Origin: Pirellulales bacterium
Lineage (GTDB): Bacteria; Planctomycetota; Planctomycetia; Pirellulales; DATAWG01
Reading direction: 5' to 3'
Assembly: GCA_035939775.1 (NCBI GenBank)
Contig: DASZFO010000257.1
Location: 1-52,405, forward strand
DNA length: 52,405 nt
The notes under the pieces were generated by a model that saw nothing but the letters and a program-made list of their open reading frames with translations, ran no database searches and had not been told where the DNA came from. Of the stretch, positions 3,365 through 32,055 are shown piece by piece (the stretch's first letter is position 1; each line of letters starts with the position of its first letter). Position numbers and translations under genes: made by a program.

Positions 3365-4630
3365 TCAGTTCCTTCCCGCCGCATCCAGCCGGAAGACTTC
3401 TTGCCCGTCGAACACCGCATCTTCAACGCAACCGTCGCGATTGCGGGCGCGGAGCCAGGTGTTCCAGCCTAGGCGGCTGCCGGGGCCGGAGTCGTCGGCT
3501 AGGATGCAGTCGGGGACGGCGTTCGCTTCGAGCAAGAGTTGCACGTCGAAGTCGAGCGTCGGGCCGATGAAGAGCCGCGTCAGATGCGAAAGCAGGAAGA
3601 AGGCTTTCGATTTTTTCACCGCCGCGCGATAGGGCAAGAACTCGGCGAACTGGTCATAGTCGAGCGGGCCGAGGCGGATGCGGATTCGCCCCTCGACGTC
3701 CCAAATCCGCTCGCCGATCACCATGTCGATCCCGAGGGCGCAATGCCCGGTCTCCAAACCCAATTGGGATTGATCCGACGGCTCCAGTTGCAGCCATTGG
3801 CCGTGGAATTGCCGCACTTCCACCGTCGCCTGGAAGTAATCGGCCAGGATCGCGGCCAGCCCGGCGGCGGTCCGCGGCCGACGGGCGAAGAGACCGGCGT
3901 AGTGCAGGATCGCCGTGTCTTCCACGCGGGCGACGACTTGGTCCTTTGAGTCGATCGGCGGGGCAAGGGGGACAGTCACCTTTTGCTGCCGACCATCTGG
4001 TGATTGTGCCCGCTCCGCAAAAGGGGACGGTCCCCAGCCGGAAACGCGGATACGATTCCGCAGGCTCGCCATACCCAGCCCCGAAAGGCTCAGCAGGCAA
4101 TGCGTGAACGGGTCTGGCGGATGCTCGGCGTGTTGCCCTCGCTCGTACGGAAGATAAAAGCGATATTTCTCCCACGCGCGGAAGAAATGCGAGAGCATGC
4201 GGTGCGTGAAGATGTCTAGCCAATCGCGCAAGGCGTGCTTCTCGGAATGCTTTGCATCGCGCTGAATCCGCATCAAGAGATCGGTGTAGTGCCGCGGCAG
4301 CACGCCGCTCGGCCCGGTGAGGCCGAAGAATGCCACGCTCATCGCCGGCGGCAGGCGGCCCGTTCGGTCTGGCCGAAGCTCGTAGATTTGGCTCGGCGGG
4401 AAATTGTGCGACAGATGGGCCGCGAACCGCGCGACTTCGCGCCCGGCAGGGCCGTCGAAGCCGACCGGATGCCGGTCCGGATTGAGCTTTTCGAGCAGCC
4501 GCACGGCCTGAAAGAAATTGAACGTCGGTCCCTGCGCGAAGAGCCGTTGCTCGACGGTCATCTCCGCGAGATCGACGTCCGCCGTGGCAGACGCTACAGC
4601 AATTGTTGGTCGCCCGCTCGCAGTGGCCAT
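3365..4630 (-). CDS. tssG: TssG, T6SS baseplate wedge protein
   Basis: A 421-residue baseplate subunit of the type VI secretion system (VasB/ImpH, DUF1305). TssG joins TssF and TssE in wedge complexes around the spike. The N-terminus has the family feature LFAQGPTFNFFQAVRLLEKL (about 29-49); the FFGLTGPSGVLPRHYTDLL region (about 104-122) and the late-middle LGPLDYDQFAEFLP also fit. The ATG lies inside the 3' end of tssF (37-bp overlap), so the two are translationally coupled. Residues about 197-223 are encoded by an 80-bp repeat element (3962-4041), which separates RIRVSGW from IDSKDQVVARVEDTAILHYAG. That segment is probably a surface loop acquired by insertion. Confidence 0.9.
   Translation of the reverse strand: MATASGRPTIAVASATADVDLAEMTVEQRLFAQGPTFNFFQAVRLLEKLNPDRHPVGFDGPAGREVARFAAHLSHNFPPSQIYELRPDRTGRLPPAMSVAFFGLTGPSGVLPRHYTDLLMRIQRDAKHSEKHALRDWLDIFTHRMLSHFFRAWEKYRFYLPYERGQHAEHPPDPFTHCLLSLSGLGMASLRNRIRVSGWGPSPFAERAQSPDGRQQKVTVPLAPPIDSKDQVVARVEDTAILHYAGLFARRPRTAAGLAAILADYFQATVEVRQFHGQWLQLEPSDQSQLGLETGHCALGIDMVIGERIWDVEGRIRIRLGPLDYDQFAEFLPYRAAVKKSKAFFLLSHLTRLFIGPTLDFDVQLLLEANAVPDCILADDSGPGSRLGWNTWLRARNRDGCVEDAVFDGQEVFRLDAAGRN
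3962..4041. repeat. 80-bp GGGACAGTCCC-type element inside tssG
   Basis: The sequence between GGCAAGGGGGACAGTCACC and AAGGGGACGGTCCCCAGCCGG matches the intergenic 29491-29570 element along its whole 80 bp: shared ends, shared GCCGACCATC core and shared GTGCC-N-GC-CGCAAAAGGGG. The ends are inverted, so it can fold. The copy is in frame and adds about 27 residues to TssG. Confidence 0.8.
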
Positions 4631-6453
4631 TTCTTGATGATCCCTCCGGTTTGCGTCGTCTTCGCCACGAGTTGAGTGAACGAATTGATCCCGGCATACA
4701 GGCCGAGGAACCGCTCCAAAATGCAGGCGAACAGAAACGCGCCGGTGCCGATGTATTTTTCCTCGTCGAACTCGATCGACACTTCGAGGCCGCGGCAGAA
4801 GCCGCTTCCCGAATGACTTCCGGTGCGGCCGATGATCCGTCGCGTGCCGAGTCGGGCGATCCCTTCGATCAACTGCCGCGTGACGTCGGCCAATTGCTGC
4901 TGGCCGGCTTGCGGATCGCTGAAATCATAGAGCCGGAGGATTTCGCGCAGGGCGTCGCGCCCCTCGGTCGGATCGTCGAGCGAGAGATAGTTGAGCGTAA
5001 GATGCGAGACCAAGGCCCAATAGCGGCCGCGGCGCGGCGGCGCCCGCAGCGGCGCCGTCGGCGTCTTGAGACAGCGAATGCCGGACAGCGGCGCAGCCCC
5101 CTCCAACTCGAAATAAAGCCGCTCTCCGGCGTGCTGGAGCTGGTTCGGTAGGTCGCGGTTGGTGCAGATGGTGCGCACGACCATCGTGTCGTCCGCCGGC
5201 AGACGCGCGTGGAAATCGAGATCAACGAGATTGAGAAACAGCTCGGTGCCGCGGTCCCCTTCGAGCGTCGAATTGCGGCGCGAGGCATGCCAAAAAGTCT
5301 GCCCCTCGTCGCCATCGCGATTGTGATGAAACGAGTAAAACGGCCGATAGGTCGTTGTGACCGAGGTTTCGGGGTCGGTGCTCGTCACCTCGTCGATCGA
5401 GTAGATCTCCATCCCGCGCGGCTGGGCCACGTCGGGAACGATCCGATATTCGTAGCGGCTCTGGTCGAGGACGATCGGCTCGGCGACCTGTTCGAAAAGG
5501 TTGACCACCGGCGTGCAGCCAAGGCGAAATGTCGATTGATCGACCCATTCCTGCACGCGCGGGATCGTGTGGTTCAAGTACAGGACGACCTCGAGCTTTT
5601 GCCCGAATCCGGCGTGCTTCGCGCGCTGCCAGCCGCCGATATCGACGAACAGGAATTTCTCGCGCATCGCGAAGAATTCGCTCAGCAGCCGATAGCCCAT
5701 GAAGCTCCGCGACGGATAGGGGAGCAGCCCTTCGTCGGAGGTGAAGCCGACTTGCGCGAGGCACTCTTGCGGCGCGAGCACGATCGGCTGCACCTTGGAT
5801 TCGGGATCGAGCGAGCGGAAGACCACTTGCGTCGTGTGGTTGAAGATCAGCTCGTACAACAATCCGACGACGTGCCCTTCGCCGAAAAGATAGAGTCGCA
5901 AGTCTTCGAGCGAAAGCTGCGAGAATCTCAAACCCGATTGGCACTCGAACTGCAACCGCAGCGCCGCGGCCGTCCGCCGCGGCGGCTCATATTCCCGCGG
6001 GAACGGCGGCGATTGCAGCGCCGCGCTCGTCAATTCGATCGGCCACAAGGTCACGGGATAGCCCGTGCGGAAGCGGCAGGCGAGATTGCCGATCTTGGCC
6101 GTTTGCAAGCGGCTGCCGCGCGCGATCGGGAAGCCGTCGGGAAGCGGCCCGCGGCTGGCGTCCAAGTCGAACTGGACGATCGCCATCGACGGCACGGGCG
6201 CGAGATAATGCGGATAGAGCACGCTCAGGAGCGCTTCGGTCAGCTCGGGGAATTCGTCGTCCAGTTTGTGGTGAATTCGCCCGGCCAAGAGCGCGAACGA
6301 TTCGATGAGCCGCTCGACGTGCGGGTCGCCGCTGCGGTTCGGCTCGAGGAGCAGCCGCCCCGCCGCCGCCGGATAGCGCTCGGCGAACTCCTCGGCAAAC
6401 TGCCGAATGAAGACCAGCTCGCGTTCGTAATAGGGAAAGAGCGATTCGCTCAT
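4594..6453 (-). CDS. tssF: TssF, T6SS baseplate protein
   Basis: A 619-residue TssF (VasA/ImpG) if started at ATG 6453; an in-frame TTG at 6471 would add six residues. The start MSESLFPYYERELVFIRQFA and the following AEEFAERYPAAAGRL are typical TssF. YPHYLAPVPSMAIVQFD (about 104-120) and the late GRTGSHSGSGFCRGLEVSIEFDEE region are also family features. TssF forms the (TssF)2-TssG wedge of the baseplate. It follows tssE by 28 bp, and that gap is part of a 7-bp tandem array that also supplies the purine-rich ribosome-binding region. Length is normal for the family. Confidence 0.93.
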   Translation of the reverse strand: MSESLFPYYERELVFIRQFAEEFAERYPAAAGRLLLEPNRSGDPHVERLIESFALLAGRIHHKLDDEFPELTEALLSVLYPHYLAPVPSMAIVQFDLDASRGPLPDGFPIARGSRLQTAKIGNLACRFRTGYPVTLWPIELTSAALQSPPFPREYEPPRRTAAALRLQFECQSGLRFSQLSLEDLRLYLFGEGHVVGLLYELIFNHTTQVVFRSLDPESKVQPIVLAPQECLAQVGFTSDEGLLPYPSRSFMGYRLLSEFFAMREKFLFVDIGGWQRAKHAGFGQKLEVVLYLNHTIPRVQEWVDQSTFRLGCTPVVNLFEQVAEPIVLDQSRYEYRIVPDVAQPRGMEIYSIDEVTSTDPETSVTTTYRPFYSFHHNRDGDEGQTFWHASRRNSTLEGDRGTELFLNLVDLDFHARLPADDTMVVRTICTNRDLPNQLQHAGERLYFELEGAAPLSGIRCLKTPTAPLRAPPRRGRYWALVSHLTLNYLSLDDPTEGRDALREILRLYDFSDPQAGQQQLADVTRQLIEGIARLGTRRIIGRTGSHSGSGFCRGLEVSIEFDEEKYIGTGAFLFACILERFLGLYAGINSFTQLVAKTTQTGGIIKKWPLRAGDQQLL

Positions 6454-6455
6454 CG

Positions 6456-6490
6456 CAATCTCAATTCTCAATACTCAGATTTCAAACTTT
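6456..6490. repeat. 7-bp tandem array at the tssE/tssF junction
   Basis: On the plus strand: CAATCTC, AATTCTC, AATACTC, AGATTTC, AAACTTT. On the coding (minus) strand it reads as TTGAGA-rich heptamers just before the tssF ATG, overlapping the tssE stop. The repeat may serve as the tssF ribosome-binding region. Confidence 0.65.
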
Positions 6491-6967
6491 CATCGTGCGG
6501 ATTTGCGTGCAACCGGTTGTGAGTTCCATCACCGTCTCGAACGAGATGTCGGGATAGGGCTCGATCCGCAGCCGGGCCTCAATCTGAAATCGCACGCTGA
6601 GATGATGAGCGCCGCGGCTGTCGTCCTTCACGTGCACCGTCACCTCGCGCAACCGCGGCTCGAAGCGGCTGATGATTTCCTCGACCATTTGACCGATCGA
6701 ATTGCGCTGCTGCGGTGTCGATGTCGACAAGGAACCGAAATCGGGAATGCCATAGCCCACCGGCGACTGCAGGATCTCCGGATACTCCTCGGGCAAATGG
6801 ATGATCGATCGATGCGTATTGAGCAGATCTTCCAAATCGCGGCGCACGGCCAGGATCACCTGCTCGATTCCGTAGCCGGCCCGAGCCGCTGTACCCGCGG
6901 AATCCGGATCGATCAGCCGATCCAGAATCGACGGAGTAAGAGCTTGATTGAGATCCACGCGAGCCAT
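6482..6967 (-). CDS. tssE: TssE, T6SS gp25-like baseplate protein
   Basis: A 161-residue protein of the GPW/gp25 family, the T4 gp25-like baseplate component that starts sheath polymerisation. DLNQALTPSILDRLID (about residues 4-19) is the TssE N-terminal motif. The middle region YGIPDFGSLSTS and the C-terminal EPRLREVTVHVKDDSRG carry the gp25 fold. The EPR triad essential in gp25-like proteins is present (FEPRL, about 118-122). The gene is preceded by a 200-bp gap after tagJ that contains a perfect small palindrome. Confidence 0.92.
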   Translation of the reverse strand: MARVDLNQALTPSILDRLIDPDSAGTAARAGYGIEQVILAVRRDLEDLLNTHRSIIHLPEEYPEILQSPVGYGIPDFGSLSTSTPQQRNSIGQMVEEIISRFEPRLREVTVHVKDDSRGAHHLSVRFQIEARLRIEPYPDISFETVMELTTGCTQIRTMKV

Positions 6968-10066: not shown

Positions 10067-11542
10067 CTAGCCCTTCTTGGGAACTTCCGCCACCAAACGC
10101 ATCGAAGTCGTCAATGCTTCCAACTGGTAGTGCGGGCGCAAATAGGCCACCGCTTCGTACCAGCCCGGCCGGCCTTCGACTTCGCGAACTTCGACCTTCG
10201 CGTCGGCCAGTGGGAATTTCGCTTTCGTTTCGTCGCTGGCCCCGTTTGGATCGCAGACGAAATTCTGAATCCAATCGTTGAGCCACTGGGCGCAATCCTT
10301 GACCTCCATGAACGAGCCAATCTTATCGCGCGCCATGACCTTTAGGTAGTGGGCGAACCGCGAGGTGCAAAGGATCAAGTTGAATTTCGCCGACAGCTCG
10401 GCATTCGCATTCGCGGCCGGATCGAAATAAGTCTTAGGCTTCTGGCACGATTGCGCGCCCATGAACACGGCATAGTCGGTCCCCTTGGCGTGGATCAAAG
10501 GTAGGAAGCCGAGATTCGACAGCTCGAACTCGCGGCGGTCGGTGATCGCGATTTCGGTCGGGCATTTCATCGCGACGTCGCCATCGTCGGTCGGGAAGGT
10601 ATGCACGGGAAGCCCTTCGACTCGGCCACCCCCTTCGACGCCGCGGGTGCGGGCGAACCAACCCCATTTGGAGAACGAGTCGGTGATTCGCGCGGCATAC
10701 GTCCAGGCGGCGCTCATCCAGAGATACTTGTCGTGGTCCTTGCCGTCGACGAATTCCTCGAAGTTGAATTCCTCTACGCGCTTGAATTCCGCTCCGTACG
10801 GCAAGCGGCCAAGCGTCTTGGGAAGCGTCAGGCCGACGAACCGCGAATCCTCCGATTCCCGGAACGACTTCCAAGAGGCGTATTCCACGCTGTCGAAGAT
10901 CTTGGCCAGATCGCGCGGGTTGGCTAGTTCCGTGTAACTGTCGAAATTGAACATCTTCGGGCTGGTGGCCGCGATGAACGGGGCGTGCGAGGCAGCGGCC
11001 ACGTTCGAGATCATCTTCAGCAAGCTGATGTCTTCCGGTCCGCGGCCAAAGTCATAGTCGCCGACCAACATCCCATAGGGCTGGCCGCCGAGCTGGCCGT
11101 ATTCCTCTTCGTAGATCTTCTTGAATAGGGCGCTCTGATCGAATTCCGCGGCCTTTTCGAGGTCTTTGAAGAGATCGCGCTTGCTCACGTTGAGCACCCG
11201 GATCTTGAGGTTCTCGCCCGTCTCCGATTGATGCACTAGATAGTGCAATCCGCGCCAACTCGATTCCAGCTTTTGGAAATCGGGATTGTGCAGGATTTCG
11301 TTCAACTGATGCGTCAACACTCCGTCGATCTGGGCGATCCAGTGCTTGACGTTGGTTTCGACATCCTTCGAGATGACCTCTCCGGGCTTGACCACCTGAT
11401 TGAGAAACTGCCGGAAATAGTCCTTGGCCCGAGCCGCCTCTTGGTCCGTCTGCGGCCGGGTGGCCGTGATGACCTGATCGAGTAGGTCGAGCGTTTCGGC
11501 TTCTTGCCCGGCGGCACTGGCGGTTTGTTCGGCACTGCTCAT
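10067..11542 (-). CDS. tssC: TssC, T6SS contractile sheath large subunit
   Basis: A 491-residue VipB/ImpD-family protein at normal length. Diagnostic stretches are LESSWRGLHYLVHQSETG (about 92-109), YGMLVGDYDFGRGPEDISLL (about 156-175), FIAATSPKMFN and AWTYAARITDSFSKWGWFARTRGVEGGG. The C-terminal part includes the NLILCTSRFAHYLKVMARDKIGSF region that interlocks with TssB, and PHYQLEALTTSMRLVAEVP at the end. With TssB it forms the contractile sheath. It lies 96 bp after tssB in the expected order. Confidence 0.96.
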   Translation of the reverse strand: MSSAEQTASAAGQEAETLDLLDQVITATRPQTDQEAARAKDYFRQFLNQVVKPGEVISKDVETNVKHWIAQIDGVLTHQLNEILHNPDFQKLESSWRGLHYLVHQSETGENLKIRVLNVSKRDLFKDLEKAAEFDQSALFKKIYEEEYGQLGGQPYGMLVGDYDFGRGPEDISLLKMISNVAAASHAPFIAATSPKMFNFDSYTELANPRDLAKIFDSVEYASWKSFRESEDSRFVGLTLPKTLGRLPYGAEFKRVEEFNFEEFVDGKDHDKYLWMSAAWTYAARITDSFSKWGWFARTRGVEGGGRVEGLPVHTFPTDDGDVAMKCPTEIAITDRREFELSNLGFLPLIHAKGTDYAVFMGAQSCQKPKTYFDPAANANAELSAKFNLILCTSRFAHYLKVMARDKIGSFMEVKDCAQWLNDWIQNFVCDPNGASDETKAKFPLADAKVEVREVEGRPGWYEAVAYLRPHYQLEALTTSMRLVAEVPKKG

Positions 11543-29220: not shown

Positions 29221-29490
29221 GGAATGAGTTCGTCTTGACGCGCTACCCGAGCGGCGCTCTGACAAGACGGAATCCGATTGTATTCATCGCGATTTATGGT
29301 AAAATGGCGTCGGTTCAAACGCACGCCACGCTGATCCCACCCCAGCCCATACCCGCCCGACCTTCCTCTCGTCGCTCTCCGTAATAATCTCGGACGAGCG
29401 GCTTTCGACCGGTTCCAAATTGCGACCGGGCCCGAGTTGGATTTCGCCGCGGCCGACAGCCTTGCCAAATGCCAATCCGAAAACCGCCCG

Positions 29491-29570
29491 GGCAAAGGGG
29501 ACAGTCCCTGTTTTGCTCCGCCGACCATCGCGGCGATGGTGCCTGCGCAAAAGGGGGACAGTCCCCGGCG
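29491..29570. repeat. 80-bp GGGACAGTCCC-type element, intergenic copy
   Basis: Flanked by GGCAAAGGGGACAGTCCC and AAGGGGGACAGTCCCC. Each end is a palindrome, and the inner part contains a second hairpin, GACCATCGCGGCGATGGT. It matches the copy inside tssG over its full length. It lies in the 29188-29649 gap, which otherwise shows no gene. Confidence 0.85.
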
Positions 29571-29649
29571 GTTTTCGGAGAGGCACTAAATGCCGATTGC
29601 TTCGCGCTCTCACTTTCTCGCGGAAAGAAATGGACCGACGGAGTCGAAC

Positions 29650-32055
29650 ATGGAACTGATTCGCCTCGAAGAGATTACCAAGACGTATCAATTGGGCGAA
29701 ATCGACGTTCGCGTCCTCAAGGGAGTTTCCCTCTCTATAGCTCGCGGCGAGATGGTCGCACTGATGGGCGCTTCCGGCTCGGGCAAGACCACGCTGATGA
29801 ACATTCTCGGCTGCCTCGACCGGCCGAGTTCCGGGCGGTATTGGCTCGACGGCCAGGAAATGAGCCGGCTGGGACCGAACGACCGGGCCCTGGTGCGGAC
29901 CGCGAAACTGGGCTTCGTTTTCCAGAGCTTCAACTTGCTTCCGCGAACGACGGCCGCGCAAAACGTCGTGATGCCCTTGGACTACTCTCCAAAGCGTCCC
30001 CACCGCGCCGAAGCGCGGCGACTGGCCCACCTGCTCCTCGACCGAGTTGGCCTGGACAACCGTAGCGACCACGAGCCGTCGCAACTATCCGGCGGGCAGC
30101 AGCAGCGCGTGGCCATTGCCCGGTCGTTGATTGGCCGCCCTTCGCTGTTGCTGGCCGACGAGCCGACCGGCAACCTCGATTCCCACACCAGCGTCGAGAT
30201 TCTGCGGATGTTTCAGCGATTGAACGAGGAAGGGATCACGGTGATCCTCGTCACGCACGATCCGAAGGTGGCGGCGTTCGCCCATCGGACGATCCGTATC
30301 GTCGATGGGCTGATTGCCGGGGACGAATCGCACTCACGCGCTGCCCATGATGCACACGGCGTGGCCGAGTTTCTTTCGGACGGACCGACCATTCCACCAC
30401 CGCATATTCACAACGGCAACGGGGCCGGCTCGGCTGCCACCGTTCTCCCGCTCTCCCTCGGAGACGTTCGGGGCGAGGGCGAGTTGACGCTGATCCGGCA
30501 CCCTCACCCTAGCCCTCTCCCAAAGGGCGAGGGAATGATCGAACCACTGCCTCGCACCGTCGGAACTGCCATTGCCGAACATTCCCGCCCACGAACGCAA
30601 ACGCGACCGACGGCGGCCGCCCATTCCACCAGCTCCTGGTATGGCGACGTCGAACCGCGTGCCCATCGTTCTCTGGCGCCGACTCTGCTTCCAAACACGC
30701 TTCGGACGGCGCTCGGTGCGTTGCGGGCCAATAAAATGCGATCGGCCTTGACGGCGCTCGGCGTGATCATCGGAGTGGCGGCCGTAATCGCCATGACCGA
30801 AATTGGCGAAGGTTCAAGGATCGCAATTCAAAAGACCATCGCCAGCATGGGAGCGAACAATTTGATCGTCTTGCCCGGGGCCATCATGAGTGGCAGCGTC
30901 AATTTCGGCAGCGGCAGCTCCCAGACGCTCAAGCCGGCGGACATGGAAGAGATCCTTCATCAATGTCCGGCGGTGGTTGACGTCGCCCCGATGGTTTGGA
31001 CCCACGGCCAGGTCGTATACGGCAATCACAATTGGGTGCCCAAGAACATGAGCGGAACGTCGCCCTCCTATCTCAGCGTGCGCGATTGGAACGAGATGGA
31101 GGAGGGCGACATGTTCACCGACCGCGACGTGCATGACGCCAGCAAAGTCTGCGTGATCGGCACGACGCTGGCGCGGGAGTTGTTTCTCGACGAATCGCCT
31201 GTCGGCAAGGAACTTCGCATTCAGAACGTCCCGTTTCGAGTGGTTGGCGTGCTGAGCAGTAAAGGGGCCAACATGATGGGCTCCGATCAGGACGATGTTT
31301 TGCTGGCCCCGTGGACGACTGTGAAATTCCGGCTCAACGGCAACGGCGCGGGAAGCACCGCCGCGCAAGCGACCGCTCAACAAAATTCGCTGACGGCCAT
31401 CAATAGCCTGAATAGCCTCTATCCCGGCGGCGTGACGCTCTACGATGTCCCATCGCCGATCCAAACGGACGACGCGCCGCAATCCGCCCGCCAGATCAAC
31501 CTCGATATGATGATCGCCAAGGCGGTCGGTCCCGAGGAGATTCAGGAAGCGATCGATCAAATCTCGGGCTTGTTGCGTGAGCGGCATCATCTCCCGTTCG
31601 ATCGCGGAAACGATTTCGACATCCGCGACATGACGGAAGTGAGCAAGACAATGTCGCGCTCCTCCGAACTGATGGGCGTCTTACTGCTCGTCGTTGCGGC
31701 GATTTCACTGGTCGTAGGCGGGGTGGGAATCATGAACATCATGCTCGTCTCGGTGACCGAGCGGACCCGCGAGATCGGCCTGCGGATGGCGGTCGGCGCC
31801 CGCAGCCACCACATCCTGCGTCAATTCCTCGTCGAGGCGGTGCTGCTGTGCCTGCTCGGCGGCGCGATCGGCATCCTGTTCGGCCGCGGCGCGTCGATCC
31901 TCGTCCGCTCGATCGAGCACTGGCCCACGGCCGCGTCGATCCCTGTGATCGTCGTGGCAGCGCTCGTTTCCGCCGGAGTCGGCATCCTGTTCGGATTCTA
32001 TCCTGCCTGGAAGGCGTCGCGCCTGGATCCGATTGAAGCCCTGCGCTACGAATGA
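29650..32055 (+). CDS. MacB-type ABC exporter (ATPase and permease in one chain)
   Basis: 801 residues from ATG 29650; an ATG at 29590 in frame is possible, but [14 protein letters not shown] is the usual start. The ATPase has Walker A GASGSGKT (40-47), LSGGQQQR and [12 protein letters not shown] long linker follows (about 235-345), much longer than in typical MacB (total near 650), and it contains translated REP-like repeats. The permease has MacB_PCD ([20 protein letters not shown], then [14 protein letters not shown]) and the FtsX module ([37 protein letters not shown]). It probably works with a periplasmic adaptor to export peptides, lipoproteins or small molecules. No adaptor gene is adjacent. 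Confidence 0.9.
30441..30538. repeat. REP-like repeats inside the macB linker
   Basis: Two related units sit in coding sequence: CGTTCTCCCGCTCTCCCTCG ..CGGGGCGAGGGCGAG (30441-30483) and CCCTCACCCTAGCCCTCTCC CAAAGGGCGAGGG (30501-30533). Both resemble the intergenic palindrome at 2424 and the unit at 45895. They are in frame and encode part of the extra linker. Confidence 0.75.

Follow-up and report, generated by a model that had tools for sequence, protein, structure and literature searches.

The tssG segment analysed here is, in all likelihood, a copy of a REPIN- or MITE-like non-autonomous repeat that inserted in frame, is translated and has been filtered by selection. Our analysis establishes the repeat family, its copy number, the in-frame position of the copy, the absence of its residues from homologues and a filter on the length of copies within genes. 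A preliminary description of this DNA had proposed a small, non-autonomous palindromic element turned protein-coding, and the proposal is borne out by homologues without the residues and by approximately 33 genes with in-frame copies. It had also called the element mobile-like and "MITE- or REP-like"; likeness to a REP doublet (REPIN-like) holds, while mobility is inferred only from the dispersed copies.

The window, by which we mean the whole stretch of 52,405 nucleotides, contains two copies of the repeat (Table 1). The gene tssG is present once in the genome, where tssF, tssE, hcp and tail-sheath genes accompany it in a T6SS cluster; all other matches to TssG within its own genome are copies of the element, aligned to residues 185-224. 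The segment is in frame, as had been described, and lies between conserved TssG stretches, with matches to the Pfam family T6SS_TssG on both sides. Homologues were found in 40 relatives, and 29 of these were aligned with the present protein. The element-encoded residues occur in none of the 29, and homologues with the same residues but without the element's DNA, which would have spoken against insertion, were thus not encountered. Such an alignment had been proposed as a check, and it makes the difference plain: between the conserved L-R-x-R-L and V/I-x-D blocks the loop measures approximately 44 residues here, against 22-23 in five of the closest homologues (L037-L041, 46-55% identity), and distant homologues have almost no loop. 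The nearest homologue (L036, 64% identity), from the same-family relative G001, has a long loop of unrelated sequence, and loop length therefore varies anyway. On the solved TssG of EAEC the position of the insert corresponds to the interval between residues 167 and 191. The TssK-binding feet of that protein comprise residues 216-252 and 300-330 (PMC8406304), and the feet were rejected as the insertion site since the insert falls ahead of both. Taken together, the shorter loops of L037-L041, the lack of element residues in homologues and the position ahead of the feet indicate that the copy inserted, with the frame kept, in a permissive, length-variable loop. The TssG of another relative (G071, L051) carries a repeat of another kind, in frame and at another site.

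Table 1. Coordinates of the two repeat copies and of neighbouring genes in the window.
Feature	Position	Strand	Remarks
tssG	3365..4630	-	421 aa, T6SS baseplate protein; Pfam PF06996 (T6SS_TssG), E 1.5e-93
Segment first described	3962..4041	-	Core plus 6 bp per side
Element core in tssG	3968..4035	-	68-bp palindrome, GGGGAC..GTCCCC; encodes TssG residues 199-222 (WGPSPFAERAQSPDGRQQKVTVPL)
tssF	4594..6471	-	Adjoins tssG; T6SS cluster
tssE	6482..6967	-	gp25-like baseplate wedge; T6SS cluster
Tail sheath, VipB/TssC	10067..11542	-	T6SS cluster
Second window copy	29470..29588	+	Intergenic; full element with outer arms, 70-bp class, hairpin z -7.3
Core of intergenic copy	29497..29566	+	70 bp
MacB-like ABC transporter gene	29590..32055	+	Directly downstream of the intergenic copy

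The element is built of inverted, paired GGGGACNGTCCCC units with variable spacers, a REPIN-type arrangement, and in aligned copies the resulting core mostly measures 50, 52, 68, 70 or 71 bp, with the layout GGGGACAGTCCCC TTTTG ... CAAAA GGGGACAGTCCCC. In most copies the core is flanked by outer inverted arms, AGCCTATCCGAGAACCGCC and GGCGGTTCTCGGATAGGCT; the full unit with arms is approximately 115-119 bp long, and its consensus folds into one long hairpin (folding with RNA parameters; single copies were folded as DNA). The "80-bp element" first reported is thus a genuine repeat of misjudged size, namely the inner core and a few bases of the larger unit. At the tssG copy no outer arms are recognisable in the alignment of copies. 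The window copies differ in length class, that in tssG being of the frame-keeping 68-bp class and the intergenic one of the 70-bp class, and their match (3962-4041 with 29491-29570) does run end to end, but inexactly, with 66 identities over 85 aligned columns, and indels. Cores without stops in all six frames account for 85% of copies against 18% of dinucleotide shuffles, a descriptive comparison among copies that are related to each other. Two copies elsewhere (L013:787-915 and L020:1479-1607) have other outer arms, AACAAATCCGGC and GCCGGATTTGTT, changed in concert on both sides, and constitute a separate subfamily; arms vary in concert in L014 as well.

A genome search, likewise proposed at the outset, recovered a dispersed family. 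With a covariance model derived from 31 copies, and 150 candidates scored, at least 149 copies, that in tssG included, were recovered in the genome (G000; 6.39 Mb, 384 contigs). As a BLAST query, the tssG copy has 41 matches there (E <= 0.01), and another genomic copy is 94% identical to it over 70 bp (E 7.9e-25). Exact GGGGACNGTCCCC sites number 407 genome-wide, which would correspond to approximately 200 copies, against none for the reversed control pattern; with one mismatch, the window holds 8 sites against approximately one by chance. These copy counts exclude a chance origin of the repeat. Among the 146 genomes searched, the high copy number is peculiar to this one. The genome also has 51 matches to SBP_bac_10/DUF1559, against none in 14 control genomes, which, on what is known of that family, suggests Planctomycetota. 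Divergent family members are present in relatives (G001, G110, G093, G071 and G063), and in-frame ORF copies occur in relatives too (L210, L212, L199 and L220). Comparison with Rfam gave no match near the gathering score. A scan of 84,980 species, which may not have included near relatives, gave no match to the interior of the 68-bp type and only two single matches, in unrelated bacteria, to CAAAAGGGGACNGTCCCCNGC. A literature search on the repeat unit found no relevant paper.

The gene context of the copies was read from approximately 0.73 Mb around them. Thirty-three of the 149 copies scored lie within a single uninterrupted ORF in which codon use is that of coding sequence to either side of the element, and for most of these genic copies Pfam shows either a domain that contains the insert or a conserved domain on each side of it. 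By Pfam, the carriers are a ferrochelatase, an FGE-sulfatase, ZnuA, a DNA polymerase X, two ABC ATPases, an altronate-dehydratase-like enzyme, LigD, NAD synthetase, YchF, the flavin prenyltransferase UbiX, KdpA, a TIM-barrel protein, a trypsin-like protease with PDZ domains, two HD-domain proteins, a TgpA-like protein, an LPG synthase/glycosyltransferase, a cytochrome c assembly protein, GH116, HyuB and others. A few copies (in L082, L108, L097, L156 and L079:6234), near an ORF end or without domain support, may lie outside the true gene. Insertion boundaries become visible when carriers are aligned with solved homologues. In ferrochelatase (HemH), 43 residues separate the aligned blocks at the insert against 3 in 28wn; the corresponding lengths, here and in the solved homologue, are 52 against 2 in KdpA, 56 against 21 in UbiX, 90 against 16 in YchF, 51 against 3 in PolX and 43 against 16 in NadE. 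No second copy of NadE or HemH was found in the genome, and the carriers should therefore be working genes.

Several carriers have further peculiarities. In the YchF gene (L071:4200-4480) a second kind of repeat encloses the present element, in frame; this second kind, which is also the one in the TssG of G071 (L051), encodes peptides of the SPSPSGEGRAEGA / LSPLSPGERPGVRA type (CTCCCTCTCC..GGGAGAGGG), again in frame in proteins. KdpA (L122:1314-3383) has an extra insertion of approximately 40 residues (516-567) which is not this element and contains no obvious repeat, and the glycosyltransferase/LPG-synthase gene (L081:2157-4400, contig C74) has a second copy at its C-terminal end (C74:8962-9088) besides the internal one.

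The lengths of the copies bear indirectly on whether they are translated. Frame-keeping cores (68 or 50 bp) are genic and in frame in 32 of 78 cases, compared with one of 71 for other lengths (Fisher p 7e-10), and among the 149 copies none was found to break a frame within a gene or to separate the coding halves of a disrupted one. Had splicing, bypass or gene death been at work, the length of genic copies would be irrelevant. This length bias, together with the lack of frame-breaking genic copies, makes translation of the inserts, and their filtering by selection, very probable, and the cell most likely gains an extra 25-40 residues in its own proteins from the element. The same observations bear on the alternative that the hairpin remains untranslated, through ribosome bypass (as with mitochondrial byps) or RNA processing, leaving a protein without the insert. 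In its favour, the hairpins are very stable and interrupt conserved domains of key enzymes, ferrochelatase among them; however, bypass or removal would free genic copies from any need to keep the frame, whereas nearly all of them are of frame-keeping length. Their frames are moreover stop-free and biased towards a single hydrophilic one, and we consider an untranslated insert very unlikely.

The reading frames themselves are unevenly used. The full consensus has four open frames, among which genic copies are distributed 22:5:6:0 (p 3e-7), and the favoured frame (22 of 33) encodes the hydrophilic, recurrent peptide SENRRGLSPFVERAPSPDGREQKGTVPL. Such a preference for one recurrent peptide could be taken to mean that the inserts are adaptive modules, with a peptide function common to the hosts and selected in them. 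We assign this little probability: three frames and both orientations are in use among genic copies, the hosts are unrelated in function and location, most copies of the family are intergenic, and a peptide that is hydrophilic and does no harm can account for the frame preference. The pattern is consistent with selfish insertion and subsequent purifying selection. A more speculative extension, which we regard as a tentative possibility, is that the element is itself shaped for tolerance in genes, a 'peptide-safe' selfish DNA adding segments to proteins across the proteome of the order; it is suggested by the excess of cores open in six frames and by the two frame-keeping lengths (50 and 68 bp).

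A genome in 384 contigs, possibly a metagenome assembly, also raises the concern that genic copies are assembly errors or reside in pseudogenes. This is highly improbable, given that the flanks differ at each site with frames open on both sides, that three of the carriers (NadE, HemH and TssG) have no second copy in the genome, and that in-frame copies of the same kind occur in related genomes. Finally, the notion of a native TssG loop resembling the intergenic repeat by chance or convergence, extremely improbable even with loops so variable among relatives and a long unrelated one in G001, is refuted by copy number and by the homologue alignment, given the near-identical copy elsewhere in the genome, the residues missing from all 29 homologues and the same peptide at dozens of unrelated places.

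We thus favour a selfish, translated insertion, for which the following course may be envisaged. A hairpin-forming repeat, made of an inverted pair of GGGGACNGTCCCC units that encloses a small core and in most cases bears outer inverted arms, would have spread to at least 149 genomic places, presumably moved by a RAYT- or TIRYT-like Y1 (HUH) transposase. One copy would have entered the variable TssG loop between the N-terminal and C-terminal halves, ahead of the TssK-binding feet. TssG would have gained approximately 22-27 residues and, since the core is open in six frames and the 68-bp form is frame-keeping, would have stayed translatable; translation itself is probable, and the effect of the insert on TssG may be neutral or nearly so. 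Insertions of this kind are present in approximately 33 genes, and selection would account for the near absence of frame-breaking lengths from genes.

A search among Y1 loci for a related transposase returned none with these repeats as its ends. The four Y1 transposases of this genome (C88, C100, C165 and C309) each have other flanking sequence, and of 30 Y1 loci in relatives one has a copy nearby and none is convincingly flanked by the element; a cognate RAYT gene flanked by the unit of the present element was therefore found at none of these loci. Y1 transposases here and in relative G021 are, however, flanked by inverted AAAAGGGGACATTCTACTTTT repeats which share AAAAGGGGACA with the element, and from this shared motif a related Y1 enzyme would be the likeliest mobiliser. 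The Y1-flanking repeat has 16 genomic sites against the 407 GGGGACNGTCCCC sites of the element. At L032:1940-2677 and L193:920-1980 the transposases lie between perfect or near-perfect inverted AAAAGGGGACATTCTACTTTT repeats, which in L193 also occur as free-standing doublets of approximately 80 bp. A RAYT gene (L034:1941-2599, contig C165) has 32-nt inverted flanking repeats, GTAGGTCAGGCCTCTGGCCTGAC, with the look of a GTAG-type REP, and a half element of the present family lies approximately 450 bp downstream of it (L034 3054). This gene was rejected as the parent because the nearby repeat is only a half element and the RAYT has its own GTAGGTCAGGCC repeats.

The first palindromic insertions in frame were recognised in the intracellular bacteria Rickettsia and Wolbachia, with later cases elsewhere. 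Rickettsia palindromic elements (RPEs) were reportedly described by Ogata et al. in 2000 and 2002. On the basis of behaviour, RPEs appear to be the nearest known kind: they are palindromic, approximately 105-150 bp long, located between and inside genes and fused in frame (PMC10969869, PMC2229807), and an RPE in guanylate kinase leaves the enzyme active (PMC2229807, PMC10969869). Both families are dispersed palindromes with open frames in unrelated conserved proteins, to which they add tens of residues, and the present copies share the RPE-like traits of in-frame location in unrelated conserved genes and absence from homologues. They differ in that the present family belongs to another lineage and forms a GC-rich hairpin with GGGGACNGTCCCC units; in that 33 of 149 scored copies are genic in one genome, against 19 reading frames given for RPE-1 (PMC2229807); and in that length classes here provide a direct test of frame filtering.

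Intragenic REPs are most numerous in Opitutus terrae and R. conorii, and over half of them are dimers or groups encoding 20-30 residues (PMC3733652). With REP/REPIN doublets (PMC3733652, PMC3116915) the element shares an inverted pair of short palindromic units and high copy number, but the aligned copies, on inspection, lack an unpaired GTAG or CGTC tag at the unit's foot, and no RAYT gene flanked by that unit was found. The terminal inverted repeats associated with TIRYTs (PMC3733652) resemble it through the AAAAGGGGACA motif of the AAAAGGGGACATTCTACTTTT repeats at Y1 genes, whereas the remainder of that repeat is unlike the element and its sites are far fewer (16 against 407). Correia elements (107 bp), ERIC/RU-1 and other intragenic MITEs (PMC2229807, PMC2759123) are likewise small, with open frames in host ORFs; those elements have TA termini and target duplications, and no sequence relation to the present family is known. 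The family thus behaves like RPEs and intragenic REPs, and is notable for its scale, its lineage and the clean length test.

One repeat family has placed approximately 33 in-frame inserts in a large planctomycete-like genome, including those in single-copy NAD synthetase and ferrochelatase. Its length classes permit the translation and filtering of genic copies to be tested directly, making it a good system for studying how selfish DNA turns into protein. Where a protein from this order has an unexplained insertion of 30-40 residues, a repeat may well be the source.
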